23,842 bases of DNA from a virus, in the IMG/VR virus record IMGVR_UViG_3300006753_000078, positions 1 to 23,842 of that record, one strand, 5' to 3'. This document shows, in pieces, positions 913 through 19,168 of this stretch. The position numbers and the translations under genes were made by a program. The notes under the pieces are model-generated. The model saw only the letters and a list, made by a program, of their open reading frames with translations. It was not told the DNA's origin and did not search any database. Each line of letters starts with the position of its first letter. Position 1 is the first letter of the stretch.

Positions 913-1638
913 ATGATTATAGGCATTATACCAGCACGTTGGGACTCTACCCGGTTCCCGGGAAAGCCTATGGCTGAGATCCTTGGCAAACCCATGATTA
1001 GATGGGTGTATGATGCTGCTGTTAAGTCTGTGTGTGATTATGTCTCCGTTGTTACCGATAGCTGGGAGGTGTATGAATATACTGCGGCCCATGGCATAAT
1101 AACCCTTATGACGGGGAAGCATGGATCCGGTACGGATAGGTGTCGTGCTGCAATGAAGGGTACGATGGCGAAGGACAGCGACATTATCATCAACATCCAA
1201 GGTGATGAGCCCTGCATAACCCCGGGGGCAATTAACCAGGTTGCTGACGCGATGCGTTACCATGACGTAGCAACCCTATGCTATCCGATCAGTGCCGACG
1301 AGGCTCTAAACCCGGATGTGCCCAAGGTTGTGCTTGATAGCAAGGGATATGCCCTGTACTTCAGCAGATGCCCAATCCCCATAAATGGCCCATTCCGGGC
1401 TCATGTGGGTATTTATGGATACAAGTATGAAGTGTTGAAGGAATTTGTAGAGATGGGGGGTTCCAAGTTAGAGGCTTGTGAGGATCTGGAGCAATTACGG
1501 TTCCTTGAGGCCGGAATTGGTATTAAGGTAATCGAGACAGGCTATCGCGGAGTGGGTGTGGATAGACCTGCTGATATACCCATAGCCGAAGCATGTTTAG
1601 CGGGGCGTAATGCCCCTTCGGAGGAGTCCCCCTCCTAG
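913..1638 (+). CDS. CMP-KDO synthetase-like cytidylyltransferase (KdsB family)
   Basis: This 241-aa protein matches the KdsB family (usually about 250 aa), which joins CMP from CTP to 3-deoxy-manno-octulosonate in the cytoplasm. Visible motifs in order are the nucleotide-binding loop IIPAR..STRFPGKP (5-19), H..SGTDR (70-76), NIQGDEP (94-100), YFSR.PIP (149-156), the E..EQLR segment (190-196) and GVDRPAD (215-221) with its aspartates. All the expected signature blocks are present, so the enzyme looks active. GGGGGG just upstream of the ATG supplies the ribosome binding site. It sits directly ahead of the packaging genes and on the same strand. The true sugar could be KDO or another acidic sugar; CMP-sialate or CMP-pseudaminate synthetases are related in fold, but the motif set is closest to KdsB. 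Confidence 0.9.
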   Translation: MIIGIIPARWDSTRFPGKPMAEILGKPMIRWVYDAAVKSVCDYVSVVTDSWEVYEYTAAHGIITLMTGKHGSGTDRCRAAMKGTMAKDSDIIINIQGDEPCITPGAINQVADAMRYHDVATLCYPISADEALNPDVPKVVLDSKGYALYFSRCPIPINGPFRAHVGIYGYKYEVLKEFVEMGGSKLEACEDLEQLRFLEAGIGIKVIETGYRGVGVDRPADIPIAEACLAGRNAPSEESPS

Positions 1639-1680
1639 ACGATTGGGACGCTGGGAGAGCCTTTCAGCGTTCCTCTCGTC
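1602..1680 (+). other. Cluster of hairpins at and after the KdsB-like gene end
   Basis: Three inverted repeats follow one another. GGGGC (1602-1606) pairs with GCCCC (1612-1616). GGAGG (1620-1624) pairs with CCTCC (1631-1635). A compound hairpin pairs GACGA (1638-1642) with TCGTC (1676-1680) and ACGCTG (1648-1653) with CAGCGT (1665-1670). The first two lie inside the last codons. None is followed by a T tract, so these look more like mRNA-processing or stability elements than an intrinsic terminator. Confidence 0.4.
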
Positions 1681-1697
1681 AAAATAAAGGAAGGATT

Positions 1698-1952
1698 ATG
1701 CCGCCTGGAAAAAGAAAGAGCAAATTCAATCCGGAAGGGCGTGGGTATGATTTTGACGGTGCTCATAAGGCCGGATTAAAGCCTGACAAGACCGGACATT
1801 GGCCATCAAGAGATCCTGAAAGCGGGAAGCTCTTGAAAGGGAAAAGTCACCCTACCTGGAATAAGACTGTTGCGGCAGAGAAGAGGTATGGATACAAGAT
1901 ATACAAACGCAACGGCAGGTACTATTCCAAGAAGACCAACAAGGGCAAATAA
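1698..1952 (+). CDS. Small basic conserved phage protein, 84 aa
   Basis: The gene starts at an ATG preceded by AAGGAAGG. The product is strongly basic and begins MPPGKRKSKFNPEGRGYDFD; later segments include KTGHWPSRDP, LLKGKSHPTW and a C-terminal YKIYKRNGRYYSKK. From memory, proteins with this FNPEG.GYD / GHWPSR / HPTW pattern occur in many phages next to packaging or structural genes, without an assigned role. The aromatic and basic makeup would fit nucleic acid binding, but that is inference. It lies 11 bases upstream of the large terminase, so a packaging-related role is possible. Confidence 0.75.
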   Translation: MPPGKRKSKFNPEGRGYDFDGAHKAGLKPDKTGHWPSRDPESGKLLKGKSHPTWNKTVAAEKRYGYKIYKRNGRYYSKKTNKGK

Positions 1953-1963
1953 GACCGGGTTTG

Positions 1964-3529
1964 ATGGCAAAAGCATCCGACATAAACGTAGACTTACCCA
2001 GAGATTGGCTACCCCTTCTGGAATGGGATAGGAAATGGCACTATTCCAAGCAGAGAGAGTTTGTCAATGCGATTGCAGACTACTGGGAGGTGCTGTTCGT
2101 GGCCGGGAACGGGTCCGGGAAGAGTCATATCTTCTACCATACCTTGATATCCATGGCCTTGGGTGTCTTGCCCCAGTTTCCGATATCCCCACCCCTGTCG
2201 ATCAAGGTGCTGATCCACGATTTTGAGCATGGTTATGGTAAGATATTCACCGAAACGTGCTTGGAGAGCCAATATCTGATTGACGGGTCCATGATAGGTC
2301 GAATGCTGCCCAAAAGTATGGTTCAGCGTCTTCCCAGTAGGGACGATCGGACGTTATATCTGACCAATGGCAGTAAAATGTTCTTTCAGACCTCAGAACA
2401 GAAGAAACGCCTACATAGTGGTACAAACTTTGACATTTTGGGGTGTGACGAGGAGCCGGAGTATCAGATATATGACGAATCTAAGCGTGGACTTAGAACG
2501 GCTAAGGGTGGAGGAAGAATTCTACACGCCTTCACGCCACCCTTTGATGAAGAGAGCAAGAATAAAGGCCCGACTTGGACGAAGTTCCAGTTGGTGGACC
2601 CGGCTAAAGAAGGTCTTGACAAAGACACATACGTAGTTCATGCTGCAATGGCTGACAATCCGGCCATAACATCGGAGTTTATAAGGAAATTCAGCAAGGG
2701 CAAGACCGAGGATCAGCTTCAGGTGCAGTTATACGGGAAATACCCCACCTGGGGTAAGCTGATCTTCCCCAAATTTCAGGATTATATGTGGGATAAGGTC
2801 ACAAAGAGGGGGAATCTACTGCCGCACGACTTTCCGGTGCCCTGGAGGGACGATGACATCAAGTTTGAAATGGCGGTGGACTGGCACGGGAGCAAACCTC
2901 CGGCCATTCTCTGGACGTATGAGGTCAGATGTGGGTACTTTGAGGGGCTTGAGAAGGGGGATGTGGTTGTATTTGACGAGTTATCGCCCCTTGCGGGTAA
3001 GGATATGACCATCATGCAGACGGTTGATGCCTGTAACGAGGTTGAGGGTCATAGAAGGCGTAGAATCACCCGTTTTGCCGATCCGAAGATGAAAGACAAG
3101 AACAATGCTCTCGTTACCGGATTTAGCCCGTGGGACGAGTTCAGGCATTGTGGGATGCGGTTTACCGATGGGTGGAACCGGGACCCGTATGTGGGTTATT
3201 CCATTATAAACGATTTCTTGCAGGGGAAAAGCAGGGAGAACCAGAACCATCCCCGGCTTTACGTAATGGAGAATTGCAAGACCTTACGGCATAACATGAG
3301 TAATCACTACAATGTGCCGAAAGCTAACGGTACGGGGGATCCGGATCCGAAGTTCAGCGACTATTGTGTGAGCCTGAAATACATTATGAACGGCAAGAGT
3401 CGGAAGATTAAGAAAAGGATGAGCTCAAAGAAGTCCCAGTTTGGACTGACCAGCTATGCCGATGATCCACACTTTTCACCGTATCTGGATAGAAGGATAG
3501 AGCGTAACAATTATGTGAGCTACGAATAG
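1964..3529 (+). CDS. Terminase large subunit
   Basis: The DNA-packaging motor and headful or site-specific nuclease, acting at the portal of the prohead. From the ATG at 1964 the protein has 521 residues. A TTG at 1961 is an alternative start, and neither has a strong ribosome binding site. The ATPase domain shows a Walker A loop GNGSGKS (48-54) and a Walker B FDILGCDEE (156-164) with the Asp-Glu pair. The C-terminal nuclease domain shows an acidic motif MAVDWHG (Asp near 306), a second acidic stretch VVVFDE, a third at RFADPK, and SDY with Asp near 466. Length and domain order are normal. The small subunit that should accompany it is not evident; see the 430-603 ORF. Confidence 0.95.
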   Translation: MAKASDINVDLPRDWLPLLEWDRKWHYSKQREFVNAIADYWEVLFVAGNGSGKSHIFYHTLISMALGVLPQFPISPPLSIKVLIHDFEHGYGKIFTETCLESQYLIDGSMIGRMLPKSMVQRLPSRDDRTLYLTNGSKMFFQTSEQKKRLHSGTNFDILGCDEEPEYQIYDESKRGLRTAKGGGRILHAFTPPFDEESKNKGPTWTKFQLVDPAKEGLDKDTYVVHAAMADNPAITSEFIRKFSKGKTEDQLQVQLYGKYPTWGKLIFPKFQDYMWDKVTKRGNLLPHDFPVPWRDDDIKFEMAVDWHGSKPPAILWTYEVRCGYFEGLEKGDVVVFDELSPLAGKDMTIMQTVDACNEVEGHRRRRITRFADPKMKDKNNALVTGFSPWDEFRHCGMRFTDGWNRDPYVGYSIINDFLQGKSRENQNHPRLYVMENCKTLRHNMSNHYNVPKANGTGDPDPKFSDYCVSLKYIMNGKSRKIKKRMSSKKSQFGLTSYADDPHFSPYLDRRIERNNYVSYE

Positions 3530-3538
3530 GGGGGACTC

Positions 3539-3799
3539 ATGGAGATCAACTTTCCAGAGCACGATGCGGGGTTGTACATCTCTCACAATGACCACAAGGC
3601 ATCCTATATGGGAGTAGAGGATGCAATAGGGGTTATATATGACGATGATGATTGGATCTCGCAAGAAGAGAAGGAAAAGGCAATAAGGACAGACTCGGTG
3701 TGGTCAATCCAATGGTATCCGGATACACCGAATCATGCTCCGTTTGGGTCCTGTATAAGGCTATCATCTACGTTCGAAGGACTTTTTGAGGGGGATTGA
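3539..3799 (+). CDS. Small acidic conserved phage protein, 86 aa
   Basis: The gene begins just after the terminase stop, with a G-rich ribosome binding site (TAGGGGGGAC) before the ATG. The protein is acidic and includes HNDHKASYMGVED, a DDDDWIS segment, and SIQWYPDTPNHAPFG followed by SSTFEGLFEG. I recall similar proteins in phages, with a pattern of N.H...Y, W.S.EE...AI and WYP.TP. None has a known role as far as I can say. Its place between terminase and portal suggests a virion or packaging accessory. Confidence 0.75.
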   Translation: MEINFPEHDAGLYISHNDHKASYMGVEDAIGVIYDDDDWISQEEKEKAIRTDSVWSIQWYPDTPNHAPFGSCIRLSSTFEGLFEGD

Positions 3800-3800
3800 T

Positions 3801-4160
3801 ATGGAAAGAACACACGGCACCTGGGGGGATAGAACCCGGGTATTCAGGAACGATTCTTGCTTGGTTACGGTATTGGAGCTTGAACCCCATCAGCGGTGCT
3901 CCTGGCATGGTCATAATACTGCCTATAACCAATTCTTTGTGATTAAGGGCAGCCTGGGGGTCAAGACCGATAAGGGTTATACGACCACCCTGTATCCCGG
4001 ACAGGCATTCACTGTTGAGCCCGGGGTGTACCATGATTTCCATACATATACGTCACATACCACGATCGTAGAGGTGGCATACGTGCAATACACAGAACAC
4101 GATATTGACAGAAAAGAGCTAGGTGGAGCCATCAATGAAGATGACCAAAAAGCAGGTTGA
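3801..4160 (+). CDS. Cupin-fold protein
   Basis: A single-domain cupin of 119 aa. The ATG at 3801 is preferred because GAGGGGGAT sits just upstream; a TTG at 3786 is also in frame but is less likely. Motif 1 is seen at residues 35-54 (WHGHN....NQFFVIKGSLGV) and motif 2 near 66-81 (PGQAFTVEPGVYHDFH). Expected metal ligands are His36, His38 and His78, while the usual Glu is Gln44. Small cupins of this type include sugar isomerases, sugar-nucleotide epimerases and mannose-6-phosphate isomerase-like proteins, and the C-terminal EVAYVQ..EHDIDR resembles those. It overlaps the portal start by 26 bases. The substrate cannot be read from sequence; a sugar role would fit the KdsB-like gene upstream. 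Confidence 0.85.
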   Translation: MERTHGTWGDRTRVFRNDSCLVTVLELEPHQRCSWHGHNTAYNQFFVIKGSLGVKTDKGYTTTLYPGQAFTVEPGVYHDFHTYTSHTTIVEVAYVQYTEHDIDRKELGGAINEDDQKAG

Positions 4161-6054
4161 AGCCTACGGGTACTTTAACGAGTCATTTCAGCGGCTTAAA
4201 GATCTGAACCAACCATACAGAGCCAAGTTTGACGAATATGACGAGTTTTACCGTGGGTATAGGGATGACGAGGATTACCCGTTTGCGTACAATTATAGCT
4301 ACCACAAGATCATCCCGGTCATTTACACCGTCCTTTCCCGGGTCATGTCCCATCTCTACCGAACTCCGGATATTGCGCTAGTCAAGCCCCGACATGCAAA
4401 GGACATAGATCGGGCAGACATCATCTCCGGAGTGCTCAATTACCAACTTGCCAACCTGAACAACGTAGACTTTCAGGGTGGCTCGTATATGGTGTTTTTT
4501 CAGTGGTTTCTGAGTGCCTTGATACATGGCAAGGGTATTGTGCATGCCTACTGGCGTAAGGAAGAGCGCACCATGCCGACAAGGAAGGAGATCCCAATCC
4601 CCACCATCGGGCCGGATGGCAATATCGGTCAGGAGGAGCTTGTTGAAGTATGGTCAGAAGAACCCACAATCATTTATGATGCCCCCTACATCGAGAATGT
4701 CCCCGTAAGACAGTTTATGCCGGATCCGGAATACAGATCCATTCAGCAGATGCCTGTGATTGCCCACATCCATAAGAAGTCCATCAATTGGATGAAACGG
4801 ATGCACGAAATTGGGGAATATAACAAGAGTGCTCTTGACGTTGGTAAAATCGCTTCTGAGTACCGGGGTAAGTCCCAGGCCCGGACGGGTCATGGCCAGA
4901 GCATTGAATGGGAAGAGTATCAGCAAGTATTCCGGGACATTGAGGATGCCTTTACAATTCAGGAGATTGAGAACGATCGGCACAAGGGCAACAACATTGA
5001 CATTGTTGATTGCTACGGAAAGTACCGGTTGGGTGAGGGAAAAACGGTCTTAGGCCAGGGTCTGACGTATGCCGCTCCGGAAGAGGAAGTGGTATGCACG
5101 ATCGCAAACTACGAGAACGTGGTGCGGCTTGAGCCGGTCAAATACGGCATGAAACCGTTCTTTGATGTTGGTGCCCACATAAATCCCCATAGATATTGGG
5201 ATATTGGGATGATCGAGCTAACCAAAGACGTTCTTGAGATGTATGATAACATCGCAAACCTTCGGGCTCACAACTCCATGATGAAGGTCAATACGATGAT
5301 AAAGGTCATATCCGATTCAGACATTGATCCCCGAAGTCTGGTATGGAAGCCTTTTGGGATTATCCCGGTTGAGCAGATGTCCGATATTGAGGTGATGGAC
5401 ACACCTGACTATACTGGCCATACGTTCACCGAGCAGATTGCCTTCTTTGAGTCTGTCATACAGGATGTGACCGGCATATACGATTATGCGAAGGGTGTTA
5501 CCCCCAGCAGACACGAAGCGGTTGGAACGGTGAGTTCCCTACAGGGTGTTGCCGAAAACCGTATCAAGCTGCTTATTCTTACCATGGATTACATGGGGAT
5601 ACGCCCTTTATTGAAATACATGATGATGCTAAACACGCACCATCTTCCCAGCGGGTTTGAGTTCCGGATAAACGATGCCGTTGGTGGTGACCAGTTCAAG
5701 CGGGTATGGGGTCCAGATCTTCACGTTGACTATGACTTTGAAGCCCGGTATGCTGCCATGGAGCCAGCAATGGCCAAAGAGGGCCGCATTAACACCCTCA
5801 TGCAGTATTCCCAGACATGGGCCGATGACCCGTATGTAAATCAGTACGAGTTCAAGAAGGCCATACTGGAGCTCATGGACATGATTAATCCCGATCGGTT
5901 CCTCAAGGACGAACAAGAGGTTCAGAAGATGATGCAGCAACAGCAACAGGCTGCACAGGAAGCCAAACTTGGTCCGGTTCGGATGCAAACAGAAGCGAAC
6001 ATTAAACAGGCCACTGAAAAGAACATAGTGGACATGGTGAAGGCGATAACATGA
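4135..6054 (+). CDS. Portal protein
   Basis: The dodecameric head-tail connector through which DNA is packaged. The ATG at 4135 has AGGTGGAG six bases ahead, so it is preferred over the in-frame GTG at 4123; the product has 639 residues. Portal-like features are the position between terminase and capsid, the N-terminal segment with SRVMSHLYRTPD, a central helix region around NLRAHNSMMKV, and near 445 the sequence VTGIYDYAKG followed by AVGTVSSLQGVAENR, typical of the portal stem and wing region. The C-terminus (about 595-639) is rich in Gln and helical, with a run of five Gln, as is common in podovirus portal barrels. The stop overlaps the next start (ATGA). Confidence 0.88.
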   Translation: MKMTKKQVEAYGYFNESFQRLKDLNQPYRAKFDEYDEFYRGYRDDEDYPFAYNYSYHKIIPVIYTVLSRVMSHLYRTPDIALVKPRHAKDIDRADIISGVLNYQLANLNNVDFQGGSYMVFFQWFLSALIHGKGIVHAYWRKEERTMPTRKEIPIPTIGPDGNIGQEELVEVWSEEPTIIYDAPYIENVPVRQFMPDPEYRSIQQMPVIAHIHKKSINWMKRMHEIGEYNKSALDVGKIASEYRGKSQARTGHGQSIEWEEYQQVFRDIEDAFTIQEIENDRHKGNNIDIVDCYGKYRLGEGKTVLGQGLTYAAPEEEVVCTIANYENVVRLEPVKYGMKPFFDVGAHINPHRYWDIGMIELTKDVLEMYDNIANLRAHNSMMKVNTMIKVISDSDIDPRSLVWKPFGIIPVEQMSDIEVMDTPDYTGHTFTEQIAFFESVIQDVTGIYDYAKGVTPSRHEAVGTVSSLQGVAENRIKLLILTMDYMGIRPLLKYMMMLNTHHLPSGFEFRINDAVGGDQFKRVWGPDLHVDYDFEARYAAMEPAMAKEGRINTLMQYSQTWADDPYVNQYEFKKAILELMDMINPDRFLKDEQEVQKMMQQQQQAAQEAKLGPVRMQTEANIKQATEKNIVDMVKAIT

Positions 6055-6392
6055 CAGAAAATGGGGGGGATCCCAAGGTAACACGCAAGAGAACGAAATT
6101 ACCCGAGGAAGAGATTGACAAGCGAATCGAGGCACTTGTGAGCCTTATGAACAACTGGGCATGGCCGATGTTCGCGGAAATGGTTCAATACATGCAAGCG
6201 GGGTTACAAACAGAAGTCTTCTCAAAGGATTTCTTGAAACTTGACCCCGTTGCTAAGGATAAACGCCACGCTTCCATTGTGGAGGCGTTAAGGCAGTTAG
6301 ATCGGGTGCTTCAGTTACCAGACTGGCTTTCCAAAAAGAAGCCTAGTCGGTGGACAGAAGTAACTAACTATGCAATAAGAAAGGACAAGTAA
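6051..6392 (+). CDS. Hypothetical head-region protein, 113 aa
   Basis: The ATG overlaps the portal stop (ATGA), so translation is probably coupled to the portal. The product is basic at both ends, with RKRTKLPEEEIDKRIEAL near the start and KKPSRWTEVTNYAIRKDK at the end, and the middle looks helical and amphipathic (NNWAWPMFAEMVQYMQAG). I do not recognise the family. Position between portal and scaffold suggests a head assembly or packaging accessory. No metal-binding, transmembrane or enzymatic motif is visible. Confidence 0.75.
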   Translation: MTENGGDPKVTRKRTKLPEEEIDKRIEALVSLMNNWAWPMFAEMVQYMQAGLQTEVFSKDFLKLDPVAKDKRHASIVEALRQLDRVLQLPDWLSKKKPSRWTEVTNYAIRKDK

Positions 6393-6393
6393 A

Positions 6394-7173
6394 ATGGCAG
6401 AAGAACAGAATGCAGTTGAAGGGACACCAGATGCTGTTGAGGGTTCGGCCCCGGCTACTGAGCCACAGATGCCGGAAGCAGTACAGGAACTCCAACGAGT
6501 TTTGGAAAATCACCAATTGACAAATGCCGAGGATGTTGAGGGGTTAGTAAGTGACCTTAATCAATTCAAAAAGGGATACGGTGACAGCCAGAACGAGGTG
6601 GGAGATTTGAGACGGCAAGTGTTGCAACTTTCGCAACAAATTCAGCAGCAGGCACAAGATCACCAGCAGGCAATGGAGCAAGACCCTTACACAGAGCCCA
6701 AACCCATTGATGTGAGGAAGGAAGTGTATGCCGCGATTGGTGATTATGTCGGCCAATTGCAGCAAGCTACGACCGCTGGTCAACAACGGTACGCCCAGGA
6801 AAGGGCAAAGTTGCAGACAATGCCAAATTGGGGGAAATTACAACCCCAGTTTGATACTGCCCTGCAAAGACCGGAGGTTCAGCAAGCTATCCAGACCGGA
6901 CAGACCGACATGGAGAAGCTGTATTTGTACCTGAACCAGAGTTACCTGCTGAATGTTGCCAAGGGAGCACAAGACGCGATACAATCCATACCGGGGAACG
7001 CAAGGAGAACCCTGGAACAGGCACCGCCCGTACAGGGTGATGGTAGGGTGGCCCAACCTCCGTCCGATGAGGCACAGAGGCAGGAGGCCATCGCCAAAGC
7101 CCGGGATGCCGGTGATGCTCAGACTGTTTTACAAAACATTCTGCCAGATGGTGACCCATTACTCCGGTATTAA
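6394..7173 (+). CDS. Putative scaffolding protein, Gln-rich
   Basis: A 259-aa acidic protein lying directly upstream of the major capsid gene, the usual place for a scaffold. The N-terminus is acidic and Pro/Glu rich. Residues about 60-95 form a predicted coiled coil with runs such as QLSQQIQQQAQDHQQ. The middle is helical, and the C-terminus has Pro-rich and acidic segments ending in DPLLRY. Scaffolds are poorly conserved in sequence, so this call rests on position, composition and length. No Ser/His/Asp protease motif typical of a capsid maturation protease is seen. The ATG follows the previous stop by one base, with AAAGGA as ribosome binding site. Confidence 0.7.
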   Translation: MAEEQNAVEGTPDAVEGSAPATEPQMPEAVQELQRVLENHQLTNAEDVEGLVSDLNQFKKGYGDSQNEVGDLRRQVLQLSQQIQQQAQDHQQAMEQDPYTEPKPIDVRKEVYAAIGDYVGQLQQATTAGQQRYAQERAKLQTMPNWGKLQPQFDTALQRPEVQQAIQTGQTDMEKLYLYLNQSYLLNVAKGAQDAIQSIPGNARRTLEQAPPVQGDGRVAQPPSDEAQRQEAIAKARDAGDAQTVLQNILPDGDPLLRY

Positions 7174-7191
7174 CATAAGGAGTAAAATAAA

Positions 7192-8376
7192 ATGGCTGCT
7201 TCATGGGCATTGACTCCCCCGGCAGGGGTTGAGTCTACTTTTGATATTACGGCGAATTCCGATGTCAGGGATGTGAGTGATGTACTGGATGCTGTGTACG
7301 TTGCCGACACACCTTTCATCAATAAGATCGGTTGGGGCGAAGCTGCTCACAACAAAATCATTGAGTGGGTAAGTGACTCGATCGGCTATGGCTATCTGAT
7401 TCTTTCCAACGGTGGTACGGTTGCCTCCGATGCGTCCAGCTTTGTTGTTGGTACGTCCGGTACGGGAGCCCAGAGCACCGCTATCCGTCAGATTCACACC
7501 GGATCCATCCTGAAGCACAATGCTTCCCCGACCCTTGGCTATATGATTGTCGAGGATCTCAGTACGGGTGGTGGGTCTATTACGTTTGCCTACATGAGCG
7601 ATACCACGCAGACCACGGCTCTGACCGATGGCGCGACATTGTTCATTATCGGTAATGCGGTTCCAGAAGGGTCTTCACCGCGAGACGATACCACGCGGCC
7701 CAGAGCCATTCTGTCTAACAAAACCCAGATATTCCGCAAGGATGTTCGTATCACGGGTACTCGTCAGGCAACCGATATGTATGCTGTGGGCAACGAGCTC
7801 CGGCACCAGATTGATCTGCGAACCAAGGAGTATAAGCGAGAGCTTGAAACAACCGCTATCTTGGGTCGTAAGGAAGCCGGTTCCACCGTAGAAACCCAGA
7901 CCATGGGTGGTCTTTTTGATTACCTGAGAGGTCAGTCTGGAACCCACATTGACACTTCTTCAACGTCTCTCACAGAGAGTCTACTGAACACCATCGTCAG
8001 GGGTGTTATGGAGAAAGGCGGTGTCCCCGATTGTGTGCTTGTTGGGTTTGAACGTCAACAGGACATCTCTTCGTGGGATGTTGCCAAGAAACGTACCACA
8101 CCGGATTCAAGACAGGCTGGGTATTACACAACCCAGTATCTGTCTGACCTTGGTGCGGTCCTTGATGTTGTTGTCTCAAGATGGGTTCCAGCGAACCTTG
8201 CTTTCATCTTGAGTTCCAGCATGATTAAATTGTGTCCTCTCCGGGGTCGTAAGTTCATCCTGGAAAAGTTGGGGAAAGTTGGTGATTACGTTGAGTATCA
8301 GCTTCTCTCAGAAGTATCCATGCAGTTCAATGGATATAACCTTGGTCAACACGGTATGCTTACCGCTTTGACATAA
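7192..8376 (+). CDS. Major capsid protein, SU10 family
   Basis: A 394-aa HK97-fold major head protein. The N-terminal part contains DVSDVLDAVYVADTPFIN and then EWVSDSIG, the pattern of SU10-type capsid proteins, in which a D....I....TP....I element is followed by a W..D segment. The spine and P-domain region follows, with VRITGTRQATD and a long helix (ELRHQIDLRTKEYKRELE), then the A-domain with Gly-rich turns and a C-terminal beta region. AAGGAG sits ahead of the start. The preceding gene is a scaffold candidate and a strong hairpin follows the stop. Length is normal for the family. Confidence 0.88.
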   Translation: MAASWALTPPAGVESTFDITANSDVRDVSDVLDAVYVADTPFINKIGWGEAAHNKIIEWVSDSIGYGYLILSNGGTVASDASSFVVGTSGTGAQSTAIRQIHTGSILKHNASPTLGYMIVEDLSTGGGSITFAYMSDTTQTTALTDGATLFIIGNAVPEGSSPRDDTTRPRAILSNKTQIFRKDVRITGTRQATDMYAVGNELRHQIDLRTKEYKRELETTAILGRKEAGSTVETQTMGGLFDYLRGQSGTHIDTSSTSLTESLLNTIVRGVMEKGGVPDCVLVGFERQQDISSWDVAKKRTTPDSRQAGYYTTQYLSDLGAVLDVVVSRWVPANLAFILSSSMIKLCPLRGRKFILEKLGKVGDYVEYQLLSEVSMQFNGYNLGQHGMLTALT

Positions 8377-8390
8377 TCTACCTCCTTAAC

Positions 8391-8415
8391 GCGGGGGGCC
8401 TAGACAGCCCCTCGC
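8391..8415 (+). terminator. Strong hairpin after the capsid gene
   Basis: Bases 8391-8399 pair with 8407-8415 as a 9-bp stem (GCGGGGGGC with GCCCCTCGC, one G-U pair) around a 7-base loop. It lies in the only notable gap of this stretch, 15 bases after the capsid stop. No T tract follows; instead the AGAAAGG ribosome binding site of the next gene begins at once. It could be a leaky terminator or an mRNA 3' stabiliser that lowers expression of downstream genes relative to the capsid. Confidence 0.6.
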
Positions 8416-8427
8416 AGAAAGGTCACT

Positions 8428-9642
8428 ATGTCGTTAGACGTTGATTACGAGAAGCTGATTGAGATGCACCCGAAGGTATCTGCTGTTTTACCTCCGCAGG
8501 TACTGGACTATATGAAGAGTGCAGACCAGAAGACCTTTGACCACCTGACTGACTCTTGGAAGTATAACATCAAGCGTAATGCTCAGAAGTACATACCCAA
8601 GTATGGTTGGCTCAATACCGGTTTCAAGGATTTCGGTAGGAATAAGGCTGTAATTGCAATAGGTTCAGGACCAAGCCTCAAGAAGAATCAAGACGAACTG
8701 AGGATGTTGAGTCTGATAGACGGTAAGATGAAAATGGAGGATCAATCATTCATTACGATGGCTACCAATCATCAGATTAAGCCGTGCCTGGAAGCAGGTA
8801 TATATCCGCACTTTGCGATGGTGGCAGACGGATCCGAGAACCTTGTAGACCAGTTCGATGTGGGTGAGGACGGGAAACATACCATCCTGATAGCCGCTGT
8901 AACTGCCCATCCGAAGGTGATTGAAAAGTGGCCCGGGCCGGTTAAGTTTGTGTCACAGCAAAACGAGGTCGTAAGGGGGTTCCTGAGAGACGAGGGCATT
9001 GACATGCCAAAGCAGAATTGCGTGGTCGAGGGTGGGAACATCCTTAACCTTTCATTCTCCATCTCGATCGGTCTGTTTGGAATTTCAGCCTGGATGTGTG
9101 TTGGTAACGATCTGTCTTTTCCTGCCAAAAGCAATGTGGATGACAGGCGCGAAGAGTATTATGCAGACGGTATCTATGAAACGAACATAAAGAGCAGACG
9201 GGACGAGGCACGTAACCACTTTGCGTGGGCGGGTTTATCGTTTCACGAAGGCCCATTTGAGCCCTTGCGGGATTATGTAAATCTCGATATAATGTACACA
9301 AGTCCACAGTTGTTCATCTACAAGACCTGGCTTGAGTCCAATGCTTTGATCTTGTGGGATGCCAAGATGAAGTTCAAGATATACAACTGTACCGAGGGTG
9401 GCATTCTTGGCGTGAACGTCAGGGAGGGTGTTGAGGGGTATGACGAGAAGTTTGACGGTGACAACTGGGTGCTCATGGACGAGATTGCCAGCAGGAAATG
9501 GAGGACTCGCAGGTTTTCCGATGCTGTTGAGGAGTTTCACCAAGCCCGTGAGACGCTTAGAAAGGAAAGATTATGGCTACCAGGGGGAATAAGGTTAGGT
9601 GTCCCAAGTGTGGGGGATTCGGATCACCGCATCATCCACTGA
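8428..9642 (+). CDS. Maf/DUF115 (MptE-like) family protein
   Basis: A 404-aa protein whose central part matches the family that includes flagellin-modifying Maf proteins and archaeal MptE-like proteins. Visible blocks are AVIAIGSGPSL (74-84), the TMATNHQIKPCLEAGIYPHF segment (110-129) followed by MVADGS (131-136), a VEGGN turn (200-204) and VGNDLSFP (225-232). Maf proteins are linked to transfer of nonulosonic acids (pseudaminic, legionaminic) from CMP donors to Ser/Thr of flagellin; MptE catalyses pyrophosphorylation of a pterin. In a phage head cluster, protein or glycan modification is more plausible than pterin synthesis, but this is inference. The last 70 bases overlap the next gene in another frame. 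Confidence 0.8.
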   Translation: MSLDVDYEKLIEMHPKVSAVLPPQVLDYMKSADQKTFDHLTDSWKYNIKRNAQKYIPKYGWLNTGFKDFGRNKAVIAIGSGPSLKKNQDELRMLSLIDGKMKMEDQSFITMATNHQIKPCLEAGIYPHFAMVADGSENLVDQFDVGEDGKHTILIAAVTAHPKVIEKWPGPVKFVSQQNEVVRGFLRDEGIDMPKQNCVVEGGNILNLSFSISIGLFGISAWMCVGNDLSFPAKSNVDDRREEYYADGIYETNIKSRRDEARNHFAWAGLSFHEGPFEPLRDYVNLDIMYTSPQLFIYKTWLESNALILWDAKMKFKIYNCTEGGILGVNVREGVEGYDEKFDGDNWVLMDEIASRKWRTRRFSDAVEEFHQARETLRKERLWLPGGIRLGVPSVGDSDHRIIH

Positions 9643-9872
9643 AGCATTGCAAGAGGTGTGAGGGTGGTACGATCAGGTGTATCCTTGAGAAATGTCATGA
9701 GCCTGTAGTGTGGGTGGGTAAAACCCCGGCACGTTATTGTTTTGTACACAGGAATCGGTTGGAGCCAAGTCCGTTCAGGGACAGTTTTGAGACGGATTTT
9801 AACGAGAAACGGCATGGCTGGAGACAGGATGTAGCCAAGGACAAGTTTCCAGCGGAAGAGGGGGGATTCTAA
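9573..9872 (+). CDS. Small zinc-ribbon protein, 99 aa
   Basis: The ATG is preceded by AAAGGAAAGA, and the gene overlaps the 3' end of the Maf-like gene by 70 bases. The N-terminal half has paired cysteines: CPKC (10-13) with CKRC (26-29), and then Cys36, Cys41, Cys56 and His59, enough for two zinc sites. The C-terminal half is charged and includes RDSFETDFNEKRHGW. A structural zinc ribbon that binds nucleic acid or protein is likely, but no function is assignable. It sits one base ahead of a second zinc-ribbon gene, which suggests related roles. Confidence 0.78.
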   Translation: MATRGNKVRCPKCGGFGSPHHPLKHCKRCEGGTIRCILEKCHEPVVWVGKTPARYCFVHRNRLEPSPFRDSFETDFNEKRHGWRQDVAKDKFPAEEGGF

Positions 9873-10058
9873 ATGCCACAGATTAACAGTTCAGTGGAAC
9901 GTACAGTATGTGCAAAGTGTGGTAACATTCTGTTGCATGGTCCACCGGGTGCAAGACCATATCCGGATTTTTGTTCCAATTGTGAGCGACAGATACTGAA
10001 CTCTTTGTCCAAGCGTGAGAGGGGGAGAAGATTTTTAAAGGAGAAGCTGAAGAAATAG
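9873..10058 (+). CDS. Small zinc-ribbon protein, 61 aa
   Basis: A compact protein with CAKC (13-16) and CSNC (34-37), the four-cysteine pattern of a treble-clef or zinc ribbon, followed by a basic helical tail (SKRERGRRFLKEKLKK). GAGGGGGGAT upstream is a good ribosome binding site. It begins immediately after the preceding zinc protein. The basic tail suggests nucleic acid contact. The role is unknown; it could be a transcription or translation modulator or a partner of the following radical SAM enzyme. Confidence 0.78.
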   Translation: MPQINSSVERTVCAKCGNILLHGPPGARPYPDFCSNCERQILNSLSKRERGRRFLKEKLKK

Positions 10059-10091
10059 AGTATAGTATGGTTGTAAAGACATTGAAAGAGT

Positions 10092-11027
10092 ATGTGGCAA
10101 AGCATGAGGCTGATTAATCCGGAGGTCCGGATAGAGACTACAAATTTATGCAATGCCCAATGTTCAATTTGCCCAAGGGAGAAAATGACCCGTGATCTCA
10201 GTAACATGGACAGGAATCACTTTTGCCATCTCCTAGACCAAGTTGCTGAAATGGGGGCCGAAGAGGTATCACCGTTCGGGTATGGTGAGCCTCTCATAGA
10301 CAAGGGCATTACAGAAAAGATCAGGTGCATATCCGAAAGGGGCATGAAGAGTTTCATTACGACCAATGCAAGCCTCTTGACGATAACCAAGTGCTTTGAT
10401 CTGATTGATGTCGGGTTGTCTCACATACGATTTTCTGTCCATGGGGTTGGCAAAGAGTACGAAGAGGTTCACAGGAACCTCAAGTGGAACAAAACGAGGG
10501 GGAACATCCTAACATTCCTGAAGGCTAACGCCAAGAAGGGTTACCCGGTAAAGGTTGACCTATCGTTTATCCCCATGGGGTTGTATACCCAGAATGATAT
10601 AGATAAGGTCGTGAACGGCTGGGAACATGCAGGGATAAATGATATCGAGGTCTGGAGGCCCCACAACTGGACAACCGGGCGGGATTACAGGTTGCGTGAG
10701 GGGAAGCTAAAGACCTGCGGCAGACCCCAAAGGGGTCCGATCCAGATCAATGCTGATGGCAAGATGATCGTTTGTTGCTTTGACTTTGACGGAAAGATAG
10801 AGGTAGGGGATACCCACAAGAATACAATACTGGAGATTCTTAGGGGGGATGCGTTTCGGAGGATTAGGGAAAAGCATGACAAGGGGGATTTGTCTGGTCT
10901 GATCTGCGAAACGTGCGATCAGTTAAACGAGGGGGACAGTCCACTACTGTACTCCACTATCGACAATGAGCTTGGGGTTGGTAAAACGTCAAGTTCAAAA
11001 TTTTCATTGATACAACCACGTCAATGA
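10092..11027 (+). CDS. Radical SAM enzyme with SPASM domain
   Basis: A 311-aa radical SAM protein. The [4Fe-4S] cluster motif CxxxCxxC is at Cys20, Cys24 and Cys27, preceded by RIETTNL. The GEP motif that binds SAM is at 65-67. A C-terminal SPASM region carries Cys209, the pair Cys228-Cys229 and Cys272/Cys275, spaced as in SPASM domains that hold auxiliary clusters. SPASM enzymes commonly modify peptides (sactipeptides, PQQ, anaerobic sulfatase maturation), though some act on sugars. No RiPP precursor is evident. The start is uncertain: GAAAGAG lies too close to the ATG at 10092 and rather far from an in-frame ATG at 10104. It sits within structural genes, followed by two small beta-rich proteins. 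Confidence 0.88.
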   Translation: MWQSMRLINPEVRIETTNLCNAQCSICPREKMTRDLSNMDRNHFCHLLDQVAEMGAEEVSPFGYGEPLIDKGITEKIRCISERGMKSFITTNASLLTITKCFDLIDVGLSHIRFSVHGVGKEYEEVHRNLKWNKTRGNILTFLKANAKKGYPVKVDLSFIPMGLYTQNDIDKVVNGWEHAGINDIEVWRPHNWTTGRDYRLREGKLKTCGRPQRGPIQINADGKMIVCCFDFDGKIEVGDTHKNTILEILRGDAFRRIREKHDKGDLSGLICETCDQLNEGDSPLLYSTIDNELGVGKTSSSKFSLIQPRQ

Positions 11028-14991: not shown

Positions 14992-15474
14992 ATGGAAGCG
15001 GTAAAGATCAAGAACGCTCTTTGGTTGGAAGAGATTGGGCCGAACATTAAGGATTTCATAACCAATTTAAATATACCGGGCATAACGTATGAAAGCCTGT
15101 TCACCTATTACCAGCAGAGCATTCAGTTTGGCGGTGAGGCCCTAGAGTTCTGGGTGGTGTTTGACGGGCACAAGCCGGTTAGTTTTGCACACTTCATGGT
15201 GAGGGGGCTTCCGGCAGTAGGGAAGGTTTATCTCGATGCGATACATAGTTGGGTTAAGGATCCAGAACCCGTCAAGTTACTTTTGGGAGAGTTTTACAAG
15301 TTTGGTGTAAGAAGCAATGCCTTGATATACGAGGCTGATGCAATTGATGAGCGGGTGTTCAGATTGTTTAGAAAATACGGGAAGCAGTATGGGATTAATG
15401 TAGAGAAAACCGGCAGGATTCATGGTATTGGGAAGCTCTTGTCGCAGGAGGAAAGAAATGAAGATTTACAATGA
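14992..15474 (+). CDS. Possible GNAT-like acetyltransferase
   Basis: The ATG at 14992 (five bases after GGGGG) is preferred over one at 14980; the product has 160 residues. The fold pattern looks like a small GNAT protein: an N-terminal helix pair, a beta region with EFWVVFDGHKPVSFAHFMV, VYLDAIHSWV, then a helix and ALIYEADAI followed by FRKYGKQYGINV and a C-terminal strand. The canonical acetyl-CoA loop is not obvious, so the call is tentative. Small GNAT-like proteins occur in this position in several podoviruses by my recollection. It overlaps the next gene by 17 bases. Confidence 0.5.
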   Translation: MEAVKIKNALWLEEIGPNIKDFITNLNIPGITYESLFTYYQQSIQFGGEALEFWVVFDGHKPVSFAHFMVRGLPAVGKVYLDAIHSWVKDPEPVKLLLGEFYKFGVRSNALIYEADAIDERVFRLFRKYGKQYGINVEKTGRIHGIGKLLSQEERNEDLQ

Positions 15475-15844: not shown

Positions 15845-15856
15845 TAGGAGGTGAAG

Positions 15857-18800
15857 ATGCCAACATTCAATCCTTACAATTTCACAGGTGTAGACCCATC
15901 GTTGATACAACAGTACCAACAACCAACTTCAAGCCCACAGTACGTTGCGCCCCAGCAAGCCAACCCGGTGTTTGGCATACCCTCGCTGTATCCCGAGCAG
16001 CCGTATAATAATGCCATACCAAATGCTGGACCCACACCGTATGTACAACTACCAGGGGGTTACACGCCCAATTTCGGGGGTTATAATCCCGCTATCAATA
16101 CACCTGCGCCCAATTGGAATATGAATAACCAATTTACCATGCCGGAGATGGCTTTCAACCCAACTTTCAATATGCCCAGTTCTCCTCAGGCGGCACCATC
16201 ATATTCCAACGCTTACTCCAATGCCTACACCAACACCTATGCCGCTCCGGATATTAACATCTCAACACCGGGTTACACAGGGCCAACCCAGAGCGACATA
16301 CAACAGATGATAACCGCGTCTAACCAGGGCAGGCTTACCGAGGATCAGGTGAGAAGTATATTTGCAGAACAGCAAGCGGCAACAAGGGATACGAGAACGG
16401 CGGATAGGGATGCAGGAACGGCAGATGAAGAGTCCACGTTCCTGGATAACCCAACTATCAGACCGGAAGAATTCCCATCATGGATTCATTGGCCGGGGGA
16501 TGCACAACAAGTGCCAGAGGGCGAAACGAGTCGACCGGAATCGCCTATTGGGAAAACACAACCCCTATGGCAATTACCGGGTGATATTCCCACACCGATA
16601 GCGCCCTCCATGGTAGATCAAGCCACCATCGCCGGTGTGCCACAGCAACAGTACACACCATATAGTATATATCAACCCAGCATCAGGGGGTACGATACCC
16701 CGGGCGCTTTCCAGGGAGATCAAAGACTTGCAACGGAAATACTCAACAGATCAGTAGCCGGTGACGAATTTACACCGGAAGAGATCGGTAGATGGGACCT
16801 CAACGGTGATGGTACTGTTGACTCCGGTGATGCTATCCTTGCGGGGCAGGGTGGACAACCCGGGCGCTACGGTATAGGTCAATACCAAACCAAAGGCTAC
16901 GACGTACCCCCATCATGGCAAGTACCCGGCATGGACCTTCCAGGGCAAATACAACCGGGTGGCTATAACATTCCCGGTTATGACACATCAGGCGCAGGGT
17001 ATGACGTGGGTGGGTATCAAACCCCCACTTATGGCTTAACTGATTATCAATCCACTGGGTATGCTCGACCTGAAGGCTATGGCTTAACCGATTATAACCT
17101 ACCAGGCGCACCACAAGTACCTGGATATGAGACACTCCGCACCCAACCCACACAGGGTTATCAAATCCCGGGCGCGCAATGGGGAGGCCAATACCAACTC
17201 CCGGGACAGATTAACCGTCCCTCGTTTGGTCTAACGGACTATGATGTGCCCCAACTAGATCCAACCCAATACGACCTACCCGATATGCCAACCGTACCGG
17301 AAATAGGCGAGGTGGGTTATGATGTACCCGATGCCGCAGGCATGATGCCTACCGAAGATTGGATGCAGAATTTCTCACCCGAGATCATGGCAGGTCTGAA
17401 TGCTCCATACGACAAAGCCAGAGCTCAGATGCTGGAGGAAATGGGTGCATCCGGTCAGGCAGGATCGGCTGGTGCTGGCCTATCTGGGGCCGCAGGAGCG
17501 GCTCTGGGTGAGTTTGAAGCCAACCGTGCCAACCAGATCGGCCTACAAGCATGGAACATGCTGCAACCGGCCATGGCGCAAGAATGGTCAGCCCAGCTAG
17601 GTGCAAATCAATTCGGCGCACAAGCCATGAAGGAAGCCGAACAATGGAAGGCGGCAGCGGGTCTTGGCACTCAACAACGAGGGTTTGAAGCAGGTGTTGA
17701 GCAAGCCAAGTACGGTGCAAGCCAGCAGGCAGAAGCCAACCGTTGGAACGCAACTGCCGAGGCTGCCCGGGCAGAACGCTTTGCCGATATAGGCATGACC
17801 CAGGGCCAGTGGGAAGCTAACACCGAGCTTGCTTTAAGCAAGTGGGAATCCGAGAATGAACTTGACCGCAGTAAGCGTCTATCAGACATCGGCGTATCCC
17901 AGGAGCAATGGAAGGGCATGAGTCAGCTTGAGCAGAACAGGTTCATTGCCACCTCCGAACTCCAAAACCAACAACGCTACTCAGATGTTGAGAACGCTCG
18001 TCGGCAGTGGCAGGCAGGCGCGCAACTTGGAGTCAATGAGTTCATGGCTGCGGCTGAATTAGCAAAGAACGAACGATTTGCCGATATTGGTCTATCCCAG
18101 AACCAATGGATGGCGTACGAGGAACTTGCATCTAACAAGTACGATGCTGAAAATGCCAATGATAGAGCCAAGCGCCTTGCTGAAATAGGTCTTGAAAAGA
18201 GCCAGTATGATGCTGCTACCGAGACAGAGCAGAACCGATGGTTGGCAGCGTCCGAACTCCAACGGGACCAGATAAAGTCAGCCGAAGAGATGGGTCTTGA
18301 AAAATGGAAAGCCCAGGGCACGCTAGAGCGAGATCAATGGCAAACCCAGGCCCAACTCGCCATTGACAACAAATGGGCCGACATGGAGATGACCCAGGAG
18401 ATGTGGACCGCGCAGGAACAAGCCGCATCCAACCGCTGGGAAACCATGAGCGAGCTTGATCAGGTAAAGCGGCTTGCCGACATCGGACTTGAAAAGAACA
18501 AGTTTGACGCAATGAACGAAAATGATAGAAGCAAGTATGTTACCGCCGCGTCCCTTGCAGAGCAAACCCGGGTGGCCGAGCAGCAAACCCAGCAAAACCA
18601 GTTGGTTGCACAAACGGTTAATCAAATGCGCCAACAGTATGCCATGCAGGAAAACCAGCGTAGGCAGATGGAAGCAGATTATGCCAACATGCAGGCCCAG
18701 CAGTTCCGAGGCGAGCAGCAACAAGAGCGCCAACAAGACTATCAGAATATACTCGCCCAACAAGACAGACAGTACGGTTTCGACTCAGCCAAGTGGCAAG

Positions 18801-19168
18801 CAGGGCTTGAAGAAGCCAGATTCCCATGGGTGTCACTCCCCGGCATGCTGGGTGGTACATATTCAAGCCCGGTGATTAATCCCGGCTCCCAAGGACTGGG
18901 ACAGCAACTGCTAAGTACAGGCGCGAATGCGGGCGCGTTGCTAGGCCTTGCGAAACTCTTTAGCCTCGCAAGTTCAAGGCGGTACAAAAAGAACATAACC
19001 CATTTGGGCTACATTAACGGTCAACGCTTGGTATCGTTTGAATATAAGTCCGCCCCGGGTAAGCGAGTGGGATTTATCGCTGAAGAAGTGGCAGTAACCA
19101 GGCCGGACGCGGTGAAATTCGATAAGTACGGTAGGCCAGATGCGGTCTATTACGGACTTTTGTTATAG
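15857..19168 (+). CDS. Giant repeat virion protein with S74-type C-terminus
   Basis: A 1,103-aa protein. AGGAGG at 15846-15851 favours the ATG at 15857 over a GTG at 15851. Domains in order are: a Pro/Asn/Gln/Tyr-rich region (1-165); an acidic linker; one dockerin- or EF-hand-like calcium loop at 314-325 (D.N.D.T....D); Tyr/Gly/Pro-rich repeats (about 338-497); a Gly/Ala-rich stretch near 530-555; ten tandem 33-residue helical repeats (575-904); a Gln-rich helical stretch; and a short S74-like domain from 1039. The S74 domain has the Ser1039/Lys1044 pair (S-S-R-R-Y-K) and a GFIAEEV motif, and ends at YGLLL without the usual long C-terminal helix. S74 domains trimerise fibres and then cleave themselves off. 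This is probably a long fibre or shaft, but a DNA-ejection role cannot be excluded. Confidence 0.82.
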   Translation: MPTFNPYNFTGVDPSLIQQYQQPTSSPQYVAPQQANPVFGIPSLYPEQPYNNAIPNAGPTPYVQLPGGYTPNFGGYNPAINTPAPNWNMNNQFTMPEMAFNPTFNMPSSPQAAPSYSNAYSNAYTNTYAAPDINISTPGYTGPTQSDIQQMITASNQGRLTEDQVRSIFAEQQAATRDTRTADRDAGTADEESTFLDNPTIRPEEFPSWIHWPGDAQQVPEGETSRPESPIGKTQPLWQLPGDIPTPIAPSMVDQATIAGVPQQQYTPYSIYQPSIRGYDTPGAFQGDQRLATEILNRSVAGDEFTPEEIGRWDLNGDGTVDSGDAILAGQGGQPGRYGIGQYQTKGYDVPPSWQVPGMDLPGQIQPGGYNIPGYDTSGAGYDVGGYQTPTYGLTDYQSTGYARPEGYGLTDYNLPGAPQVPGYETLRTQPTQGYQIPGAQWGGQYQLPGQINRPSFGLTDYDVPQLDPTQYDLPDMPTVPEIGEVGYDVPDAAGMMPTEDWMQNFSPEIMAGLNAPYDKARAQMLEEMGASGQAGSAGAGLSGAAGAALGEFEANRANQIGLQAWNMLQPAMAQEWSAQLGANQFGAQAMKEAEQWKAAAGLGTQQRGFEAGVEQAKYGASQQAEANRWNATAEAARAERFADIGMTQGQWEANTELALSKWESENELDRSKRLSDIGVSQEQWKGMSQLEQNRFIATSELQNQQRYSDVENARRQWQAGAQLGVNEFMAAAELAKNERFADIGLSQNQWMAYEELASNKYDAENANDRAKRLAEIGLEKSQYDAATETEQNRWLAASELQRDQIKSAEEMGLEKWKAQGTLERDQWQTQAQLAIDNKWADMEMTQEMWTAQEQAASNRWETMSELDQVKRLADIGLEKNKFDAMNENDRSKYVTAASLAEQTRVAEQQTQQNQLVAQTVNQMRQQYAMQENQRRQMEADYANMQAQQFRGEQQQERQQDYQNILAQQDRQYGFDSAKWQAGLEEARFPWVSLPGMLGGTYSSPVINPGSQGLGQQLLSTGANAGALLGLAKLFSLASSRRYKKNITHLGYINGQRLVSFEYKSAPGKRVGFIAEEVAVTRPDAVKFDKYGRPDAVYYGLLL
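16868..17350 (+). repeat. Tyr/Gly/Pro-rich coding repeats
   Basis: Within the giant gene this stretch encodes irregular 7-15 residue units built on GY(D/N/Q)(V/I/T)P and YGLTDY. GLTDY occurs three times, the first two as a near-identical stretch of DNA near 17030 and 17078. The protein here is probably extended or disordered, with no predicted helix. Confidence 0.7.
17407..17430 (+). repeat. Exact 24-base repeat, copy 1
   Basis: This stretch, coding for YDKARAQ in the giant gene, recurs without mismatch at 19603-19626 in the next gene, in the same reading frame relative to codons. The flanking bases differ on both sides. Confidence 0.9.
17579..18568 (+). repeat. Ten tandem 99-base coding repeats (33 residues)
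   Basis: Successive units begin at 17579, 17678, 17777, 17876, 17975, 18074, 18173, 18272, 18371 and 18470, with an exact spacing of 99 bases and no insertions. Each unit has a basic residue then an aromatic or Leu at 1-2, (A/S)(D/E)IG in many copies at 3-6, QW or an aromatic at 11-12, and (N/S)(R/K)(W/Y/F) at 21-23. Aromatics fall about 11 residues apart, so 33 equals three 11-residue turns. The first two units are weaker and a degenerate eleventh may follow to 18667. Confidence 0.88.
19107..19133 (+). repeat. Exact 27-base repeat, copy 1
   Basis: This stretch, coding for AVKFDKYG near the end of the S74-like domain, recurs without mismatch at 19548-19574 in the next gene. With one mismatch the match extends five more bases at its right end. 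Confidence 0.9.

Follow-up and report, generated by a model that had tools for sequence, protein, structure and literature searches.

What does a phage do with sugar-activating and glycosyltransferase-like genes placed around its capsid gene? This question is raised by the IMG/VR virus record IMGVR_UViG_3300006753_000078, which we analysed over its whole length of 23,842 bases (hereafter the window; the record is probably a fragment). A preliminary description had recognised in it a KdsB-like gene for the activation of an acidic sugar with cytidine monophosphate (CMP) and, after the capsid gene, a gene for a Maf/DUF115 protein, and had proposed that the two together decorate the virion. Our analysis indicates that the phage probably does decorate its own particles with sugar, and places the Maf-like gene, rather than the pair, at the centre of the system. 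The coordinates of all features are collected in Table 1.

The Maf/DUF115 assignment held: the PF01973 domain scores above the Pfam cut-off and is found in 10 of 10 aligned members of the family. As the Pfam name of this domain is MptE-like, the protein might instead be a pterin-type pyrophosphokinase, such as MptE or the archaeal 6-hydroxymethylpterin pyrophosphokinase (HPPK), or else a head or neck protein that has lost its catalytic activity. We therefore compared an AlphaFold model, based on ten homologues from phages (predicted local distance difference test, pLDDT, 82; predicted template modelling score 0.85), with known structures. Foldseek ranked the Magnetospirillum Maf flagellin glycosyltransferase (5MU5) first and archaeal HPPK second. 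VIA-align scored the Maf match clearly higher, with Z 22.2 (root-mean-square deviation 3.0 over 244 residues, 15% identity) versus Z 14.5 for HPPK (8SD5), while GT29 sialyltransferases reached Z 7-8.5, a level that is not evidence by itself. The only PDB profile match was to HPPK and was non-significant (E 0.31). The model thus supports a Maf-type rather than a pterin-kinase-type structure, and the structural check on which the preliminary description had made its proposal depend came out on the Maf side.

The same model, read together with the alignment, places the invariant residues of the family (G79/G81, N87, N114-H115, D134, G203-N204, N207, G226 and D228) at or just past the C-terminal strand ends of the Rossmann-like sheet, and these strand-end motifs are kept among homologues that are 30-37% identical to the window copy. 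Judged from topology, such a pattern is consistent with a working nucleotide-sugar pocket, since this fold class binds nucleotide donors there. The protein has its Pfam domain in common with MptE and HPPK, yet its fold match to them is weaker than to Maf and its genomic context is glycan-related: genes for handling sugars recur beside the Maf-like gene, and none for pterin or folate could be recognised. A pyrophosphokinase or an inert structural protein is thus very improbable.

Maf flagellin glycosyltransferases (of Magnetospirillum, Clostridium and Geobacillus) have the central MptE-like/Maf_flag10 domain and the start of the C-terminal helical part in common with the phage protein. They have three domains in all, the N-terminal one among them being degenerate and Rossmann-like (PMC11339370). 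This N-terminal domain is absent from the phage protein, because the structural match spans only residues 238-517 of 5MU5; residues 1-73 of the model are helical, with no strand of three or more residues. The phage protein is also shorter (404 versus 632 residues in 5MU5), and its gene lies by a capsid gene, not by one for flagellin. As modelled, it would work like, yet is not, a canonical flagellar Maf. The closest entries in a viral model library are MptE-like proteins of uncultured Caudovirales, so phage-borne members are already in databases. A tblastn search of sequenced phages with two Maf-like proteins of the group gave no match and PHROGs holds no family for the window's protein; known phages thus give it no context.

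Relatives were gathered by scanning viral contigs with the large terminase subunit (TerL), the radical-SAM protein and an alignment of the Maf-like family as queries; scans with single-sequence Maf-like, KdsB or portal queries recovered none. The set of 10 comprises nine uncultured phage contigs (the near-identical G010 and G011 counted once) and one scaffold (L023, MELM01000008.1) from a metagenome-assembled genome of Candidatus Solincola sediminis, and their records are possibly incomplete. L023 carries the portal, capsid, Maf-like and radical-SAM genes of a phage of this group, and its presence in that genome may reflect either a host link or misbinning. Two weak capsid relatives (L002 and L003) were excluded, as neither has an MptE-like or a CTP_transf_3 gene.

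In the window and in 10 of 10 relatives, the Maf-like gene follows the gene for the major capsid protein (MCP) within ~0.8 kb. The two usually adjoin, with a small open reading frame (ORF) between them in G003 and one ORF in G004. The placing of the sugar genes around the capsid gene was therefore right, the neighbours being an SU10-type portal and MCP. The gene found most regularly with the Maf-like gene in relatives is a radical-SAM/SPASM gene, which the preliminary description had omitted. It follows the Maf-like gene in nine of the ten contigs that reach that far, the window included (it is absent in G009), and a cupin gene is present in eight of ten contigs covering its region (missing in G004 and G009). 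Around this core, between TerL and the portal gene and between the Maf-like and radical-SAM genes, most relatives carry sugar-, sulfo- or methyltransferase genes. These include a GDP-mannose 4,6-dehydratase, a C-methyltransferase, two family 2 glycosyltransferases (GT2) and a hexapeptide acyltransferase in G008; an NAD-dependent epimerase (read as GDP-fucose-synthase-like), methyltransferases and a weakly matching sulfotransferase in G011; sulfotransferases in G003 and G004; a 934-residue GT2 protein in G007; and a GT2 enzyme with a methyltransferase in L023. Four phages with SU10-type capsids outside the group have no annotated gene of these kinds near MCP.

The other gene singled out at the start is indeed a kdsB. 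Its product matches Pfam CTP_transf_3 (E 8.8e-45), exceeds the cut-offs of NF003952 (246.7 bits, cut-off 193) and TIGR00466 (kdsB; 179.9, cut-off 155.2) while staying under those of the remaining NCBIfam KdsB sub-models, and resembles KdsB-type enzymes of known structure (best E 6.7e-46). In alignments the motifs IPAR...GKP, NxQGD, YFSR, HxGIY, LEQLR and VD are all intact. It is predicted to make CMP-Kdo from cytidine triphosphate and 3-deoxy-D-manno-octulosonic acid (Kdo), Kdo and 8-amino-Kdo being indistinguishable as substrates by sequence. KdsB makes an octulosonic rather than a nonulosonic donor. A link of this gene to nonulosonic acids, as drawn from bacterial Maf systems, is not supported, and a nonulosonic-acid CMP synthetase was rejected, the PseF model scoring 27.8 bits against a cut-off of 205.7. 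The window protein resembles bacterial KdsB in passing curated models and in its identity of at most 46% to those compared; it differs in being phage-borne, beside the terminase and without KdsA in the sequenced part.

Was KdsB the regular partner of the Maf-like protein, as the proposed pairing implied? It was not. A KdsB-family gene occurs only in the window and in one relative, G009, and no CTP_transf_3 gene was found in nine of the ten other virus records of the group (G003-G012). In both carriers it stands next to TerL; in the window it lies upstream of TerL with one small ORF in between, ~6.8 kb from the Maf-like gene. Because KdsB recurs in one relative only and other sugar genes occur elsewhere, the conserved unit is not a KdsB-Maf pair; it is a module linked to the capsid gene and centred on the Maf-like gene, whose sugar enzymes are exchangeable, and KdsB is just one of a number of sugar genes that can replace one another across these phages. 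The preliminary description was thus partly supported, right in outline while naming the wrong conserved partner. For virion glycosylation itself, the Maf-type fold, the linkage to the capsid gene, the recurrent transferase genes and the reported use of CMP-Kdo by Maf enzymes speak in its favour, KdsB as a regular partner does not stand, and a virion protein is the presumed acceptor.

Such a distribution would also be expected if the Maf module decorated the virion with a donor made by the host or otherwise, and KdsB served another transferase or the host lipopolysaccharide (LPS). The nine records with a Maf-like gene and no KdsB fit this explanation, as does the position of KdsB at the terminase end, well away from the Maf-like gene. 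It accounts less well for the finding that two divergent members both have KdsB next to TerL and within one late gene block, for the reported use of CMP-Kdo by Maf enzymes (PMC11339370) and for the window's 23.8 kb, in which no other transferase was recognised. We regard it as somewhat unlikely. Among sequenced phages, KdsB was matched by 7 of 50,697 records, at least one of the seven being bacterial DNA; at that rate the chance of a KdsB in at least one of ~10 relatives would be ~1/700, a rough guide given that the collections are not comparable. The KdsB of 'Acinetobacter phage MD-2021a' (L044, CAKLQH020000011.1) was discarded for its bacterial chromosomal neighbours (lpxK, holB and type II secretion).

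The KdsB query had 132 matching loci in IMG/VR, and contexts were described for the best 80 of these. Within the best 80, kdsA was present in 29 loci, the cupin (found by a profile of the window family) in 10, mostly adjoining kdsA or kdsB, and the Maf family of the window in G009's own contig only. Phage Kdo cassettes with both KdsA and KdsB, as in cyanophage S-SCSM2R and many IMG/VR contigs, resemble the window in having a phage-borne KdsB and differ from it in having KdsA. One published study reports kdsB among viral metabolic genes related to LPS (PMC9529941). Together with these kdsA-bearing loci and with flagellin as the known target of Maf (PMC4065374, PMC11339370), this raises the alternative that the target of modification is not the virion; it would be the LPS, capsule or flagellin on the surface of the host, for example as a means to block competing phages. 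Such a role is hard to square with a Maf-like gene fixed between the capsid and the neck/tail genes in all relatives, a late-virion-gene location, near which no flagellar or LPS-assembly gene was recognised. We consider it unlikely.

We therefore return to decoration of the virion, for which we propose a late-gene glycan-modification module carried by the phage. Its fixed core would be a Maf-type glycosyltransferase encoded right after the MCP gene, usually with the radical-SAM/SPASM enzyme and the sugar-isomerase-like cupin, and its variable part would supply or alter the sugar, a task that would fall to KdsB in the window phage. KdsB would activate Kdo, presumably taken from the LPS pathway of a Gram-negative host, and the Maf-type enzyme would move the sugar from CMP-Kdo onto Ser/Thr residues of a virion protein, either a small decoration protein or the capsid. 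This transfer would take place in the cytoplasm, ahead of assembly or while it proceeds. One candidate acceptor is MCP, with 19.5% Ser+Thr; another is the small Ser/Thr-rich product of the gene after the radical-SAM gene, a candidate decoration protein or acceptor by its position. Known Maf enzymes transfer nonulosonic acids and, in some cases, Kdo to Ser/Thr, and those of Clostridium and Geobacillus accept CMP-Kdo (PMC11339370), which makes Kdo decoration of a virion protein plausible. Bacterial Maf glycosylates flagellin in the cytoplasm (PMC4065374); this, together with the acceptance of CMP-Kdo, favours action of a phage Maf-type enzyme on a late phage protein.

Several observations weigh against this proposal. 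KdsB is missing from most relatives, including G003 and G011, each ~50 kb long. The KdsB proteins of the window and G009, at 41% identity, resemble each other no more closely than they do bacterial KdsB in the set compared (up to 46%); this comparison rests on pairwise identities, the KdsB tree being unresolved. A DAHP_synth_1/KdsA search found no KdsA in the window, nor in G003, G008, G009 or G011, so that a supply of Kdo by the host is presumed. The Maf-like protein is without the N-terminal Maf domain, and activity, acceptor and glycan are all predicted from genes. On balance, we give the joint explanation, in which a Maf-centred module, KdsB-made CMP-Kdo and Maf-type transfer to a virion protein all hold, a little under an even chance.

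The partner genes bear on how the sugar might be supplied and altered. The cupin noted earlier at 3801 was borne out. It exceeds the cut-off of Lyx_isomer over a partial stretch (24.4, cut-off 20.8) and falls short of that of MannoseP_isomer (21.0, cut-off 23.6), a model matched at E<=0.01 by six of six aligned cupin members. In three of the viral KdsB loci (L135, at 8451-10621, L136 and L138), kdsC-like, window-family cupin, kdsA-like and kdsB-like genes form one run in which the cupin occupies the place expected for kdsD. This suggests, by guilt by association, that the family helps to provide a precursor of Kdo, and it may be an arabinose-5-phosphate isomerase; since the cupin is also found in relatives without KdsB, its role in the group may be broader. 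In a phage contig outside the group (L090:9577-11276), the genes for the cupin, KdsB and a GT29 sialyltransferase-like protein overlap, so that a CMP-Kdo maker is independently paired there with a gene of sialyltransferase type.

The radical-SAM enzyme has a CxxxCxxC cluster motif, with C20, C24, C27 and the C-terminal Cys residues invariant, and its homologues downstream of the Maf-like gene are 44-54% identical. The sole sequenced phage matching it, C48C1 (27% identity), has the gene near a glycosyltransferase and a Nol-like carbamoyltransferase. The GNAT-like protein that had been noted at 14992 has no Pfam match, and was confirmed by its AlphaFold model (pLDDT 79, GNAT topology) and by Foldseek matches to GNAT acetyltransferases (1tiq, E 3.5e-6); homologues occur in five other contigs of the group. 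Like the cupin and the radical-SAM enzyme, it may take part in the sugar modification. A still more specific picture joins four proposals: the Maf-type enzyme attaches Kdo by an O-linkage to the capsid or decoration protein; the cupin serves as a non-orthologous arabinose-5-phosphate isomerase; further editing of the glycan falls to the radical-SAM enzyme; and sugar cassettes are exchanged within the clade while the transferase stays fixed, which alters the virion coat. This picture is quite unlikely to hold in every part.

Glycosylation of virions by phages is already known. According to Freeman et al. 2023, as cited in PMC12363180, phage-encoded transferases of the mycobacteriophages Che8, Corndog and Myrna modify capsid and tail proteins. 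Modification was shown there by experiment, whereas for the window phage it is predicted from genes; the passages concerned in PMC12363180 mention neither a Maf-type enzyme nor Kdo. What is new here is the enzyme family, its fixed position and the exchangeable sugar genes; in the literature searched, only part of the whole, no phage Maf module linked to the capsid gene was seen to be described. If our proposal is correct, phages would have a Maf/sialyltransferase-fold route to particle glycosylation in which the transferase is locked to the capsid gene while the sugar genes vary, a natural system for the study of coat variation. It would also offer a testable donor-acceptor pair (CMP-Kdo with a capsid or decoration protein) and suggest a role in glycosylation for a family of phage proteins that is named after a pterin kinase.

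Table 1. Positions of the genes discussed, in window coordinates, with the evidence for each (aa, amino acids).
Feature	Position	Strand	Evidence
KdsB-type CMP-Kdo synthetase, 241 aa	913..1638	+	Pfam, NCBIfam, solved KdsB relatives
Large terminase subunit TerL	1961..3529	+	Weak terminase Pfam matches; 37-63% identical to relatives' TerL
Sugar-isomerase-like cupin, 119 aa	3801..4160	+	Cupin_2 E 2.3e-8
SU10-type portal	4123..6054	+	PF23899 E 1.6e-28
SU10-type MCP	7192..8376	+	PF17236 E 5.8e-57
Maf-type (MptE-like) putative glycosyltransferase, 404 aa	8428..9642	+	PF01973 E 9.8e-15, above cut-off
Small Cys-rich zinc-ribbon-like protein	9573..9872	+	Seven Cys in CxxC-type pairs
Second small zinc-ribbon-like protein	9873..10058	+	Weak zinc-ribbon Pfam matches
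Radical-SAM/SPASM enzyme, 311 aa	10092..11027	+	Radical_SAM E 6.8e-14, SPASM E 6.1e-10
Ser/Thr-rich small protein, 137 aa	11049..11462	+	19.7% Ser+Thr
GNAT-fold acetyltransferase-like protein	14980 (or 14992)..15474	+	AlphaFold model, Foldseek

Two small Cys-rich genes separate the Maf-like and radical-SAM genes. The first begins within the last 70 bases of the Maf-like gene (overlap 9573-9642), and similar Cys-rich ORFs with overlapping starts occur in G005, G006, G007, G008 and G011, which suggests translational coupling with the Maf-like gene. Small Cys-rich ORFs like the second are found at the equivalent place in relatives.

Some further features were seen in passing. A second protein bearing a GKGPGWDLAP-type motif is encoded in G009 (L027:12872-13807; no Pfam match) and in G004 (L012:10469-11449), and by eye it is possibly another GT42/MptE-like fold. 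Among the viral KdsB loci, L091:3852-5129 is a 425-residue KdsB-like ORF whose extra C-terminal part appears methyltransferase-like by eye, and KdsB lies within long ORFs in L064-L066 too. Upstream of KdsB, positions 1-900 of the window hold short ORFs only, none long and intact, of which that at 430-603 may, by eye, be a small-terminase remnant. Finally, positions 15851-19168 encode a 1105-residue protein with repeated 'ENELDRSKRLSDIGVSQ'-like units, the end of which resembles, by eye, an S74-type chaperone domain.

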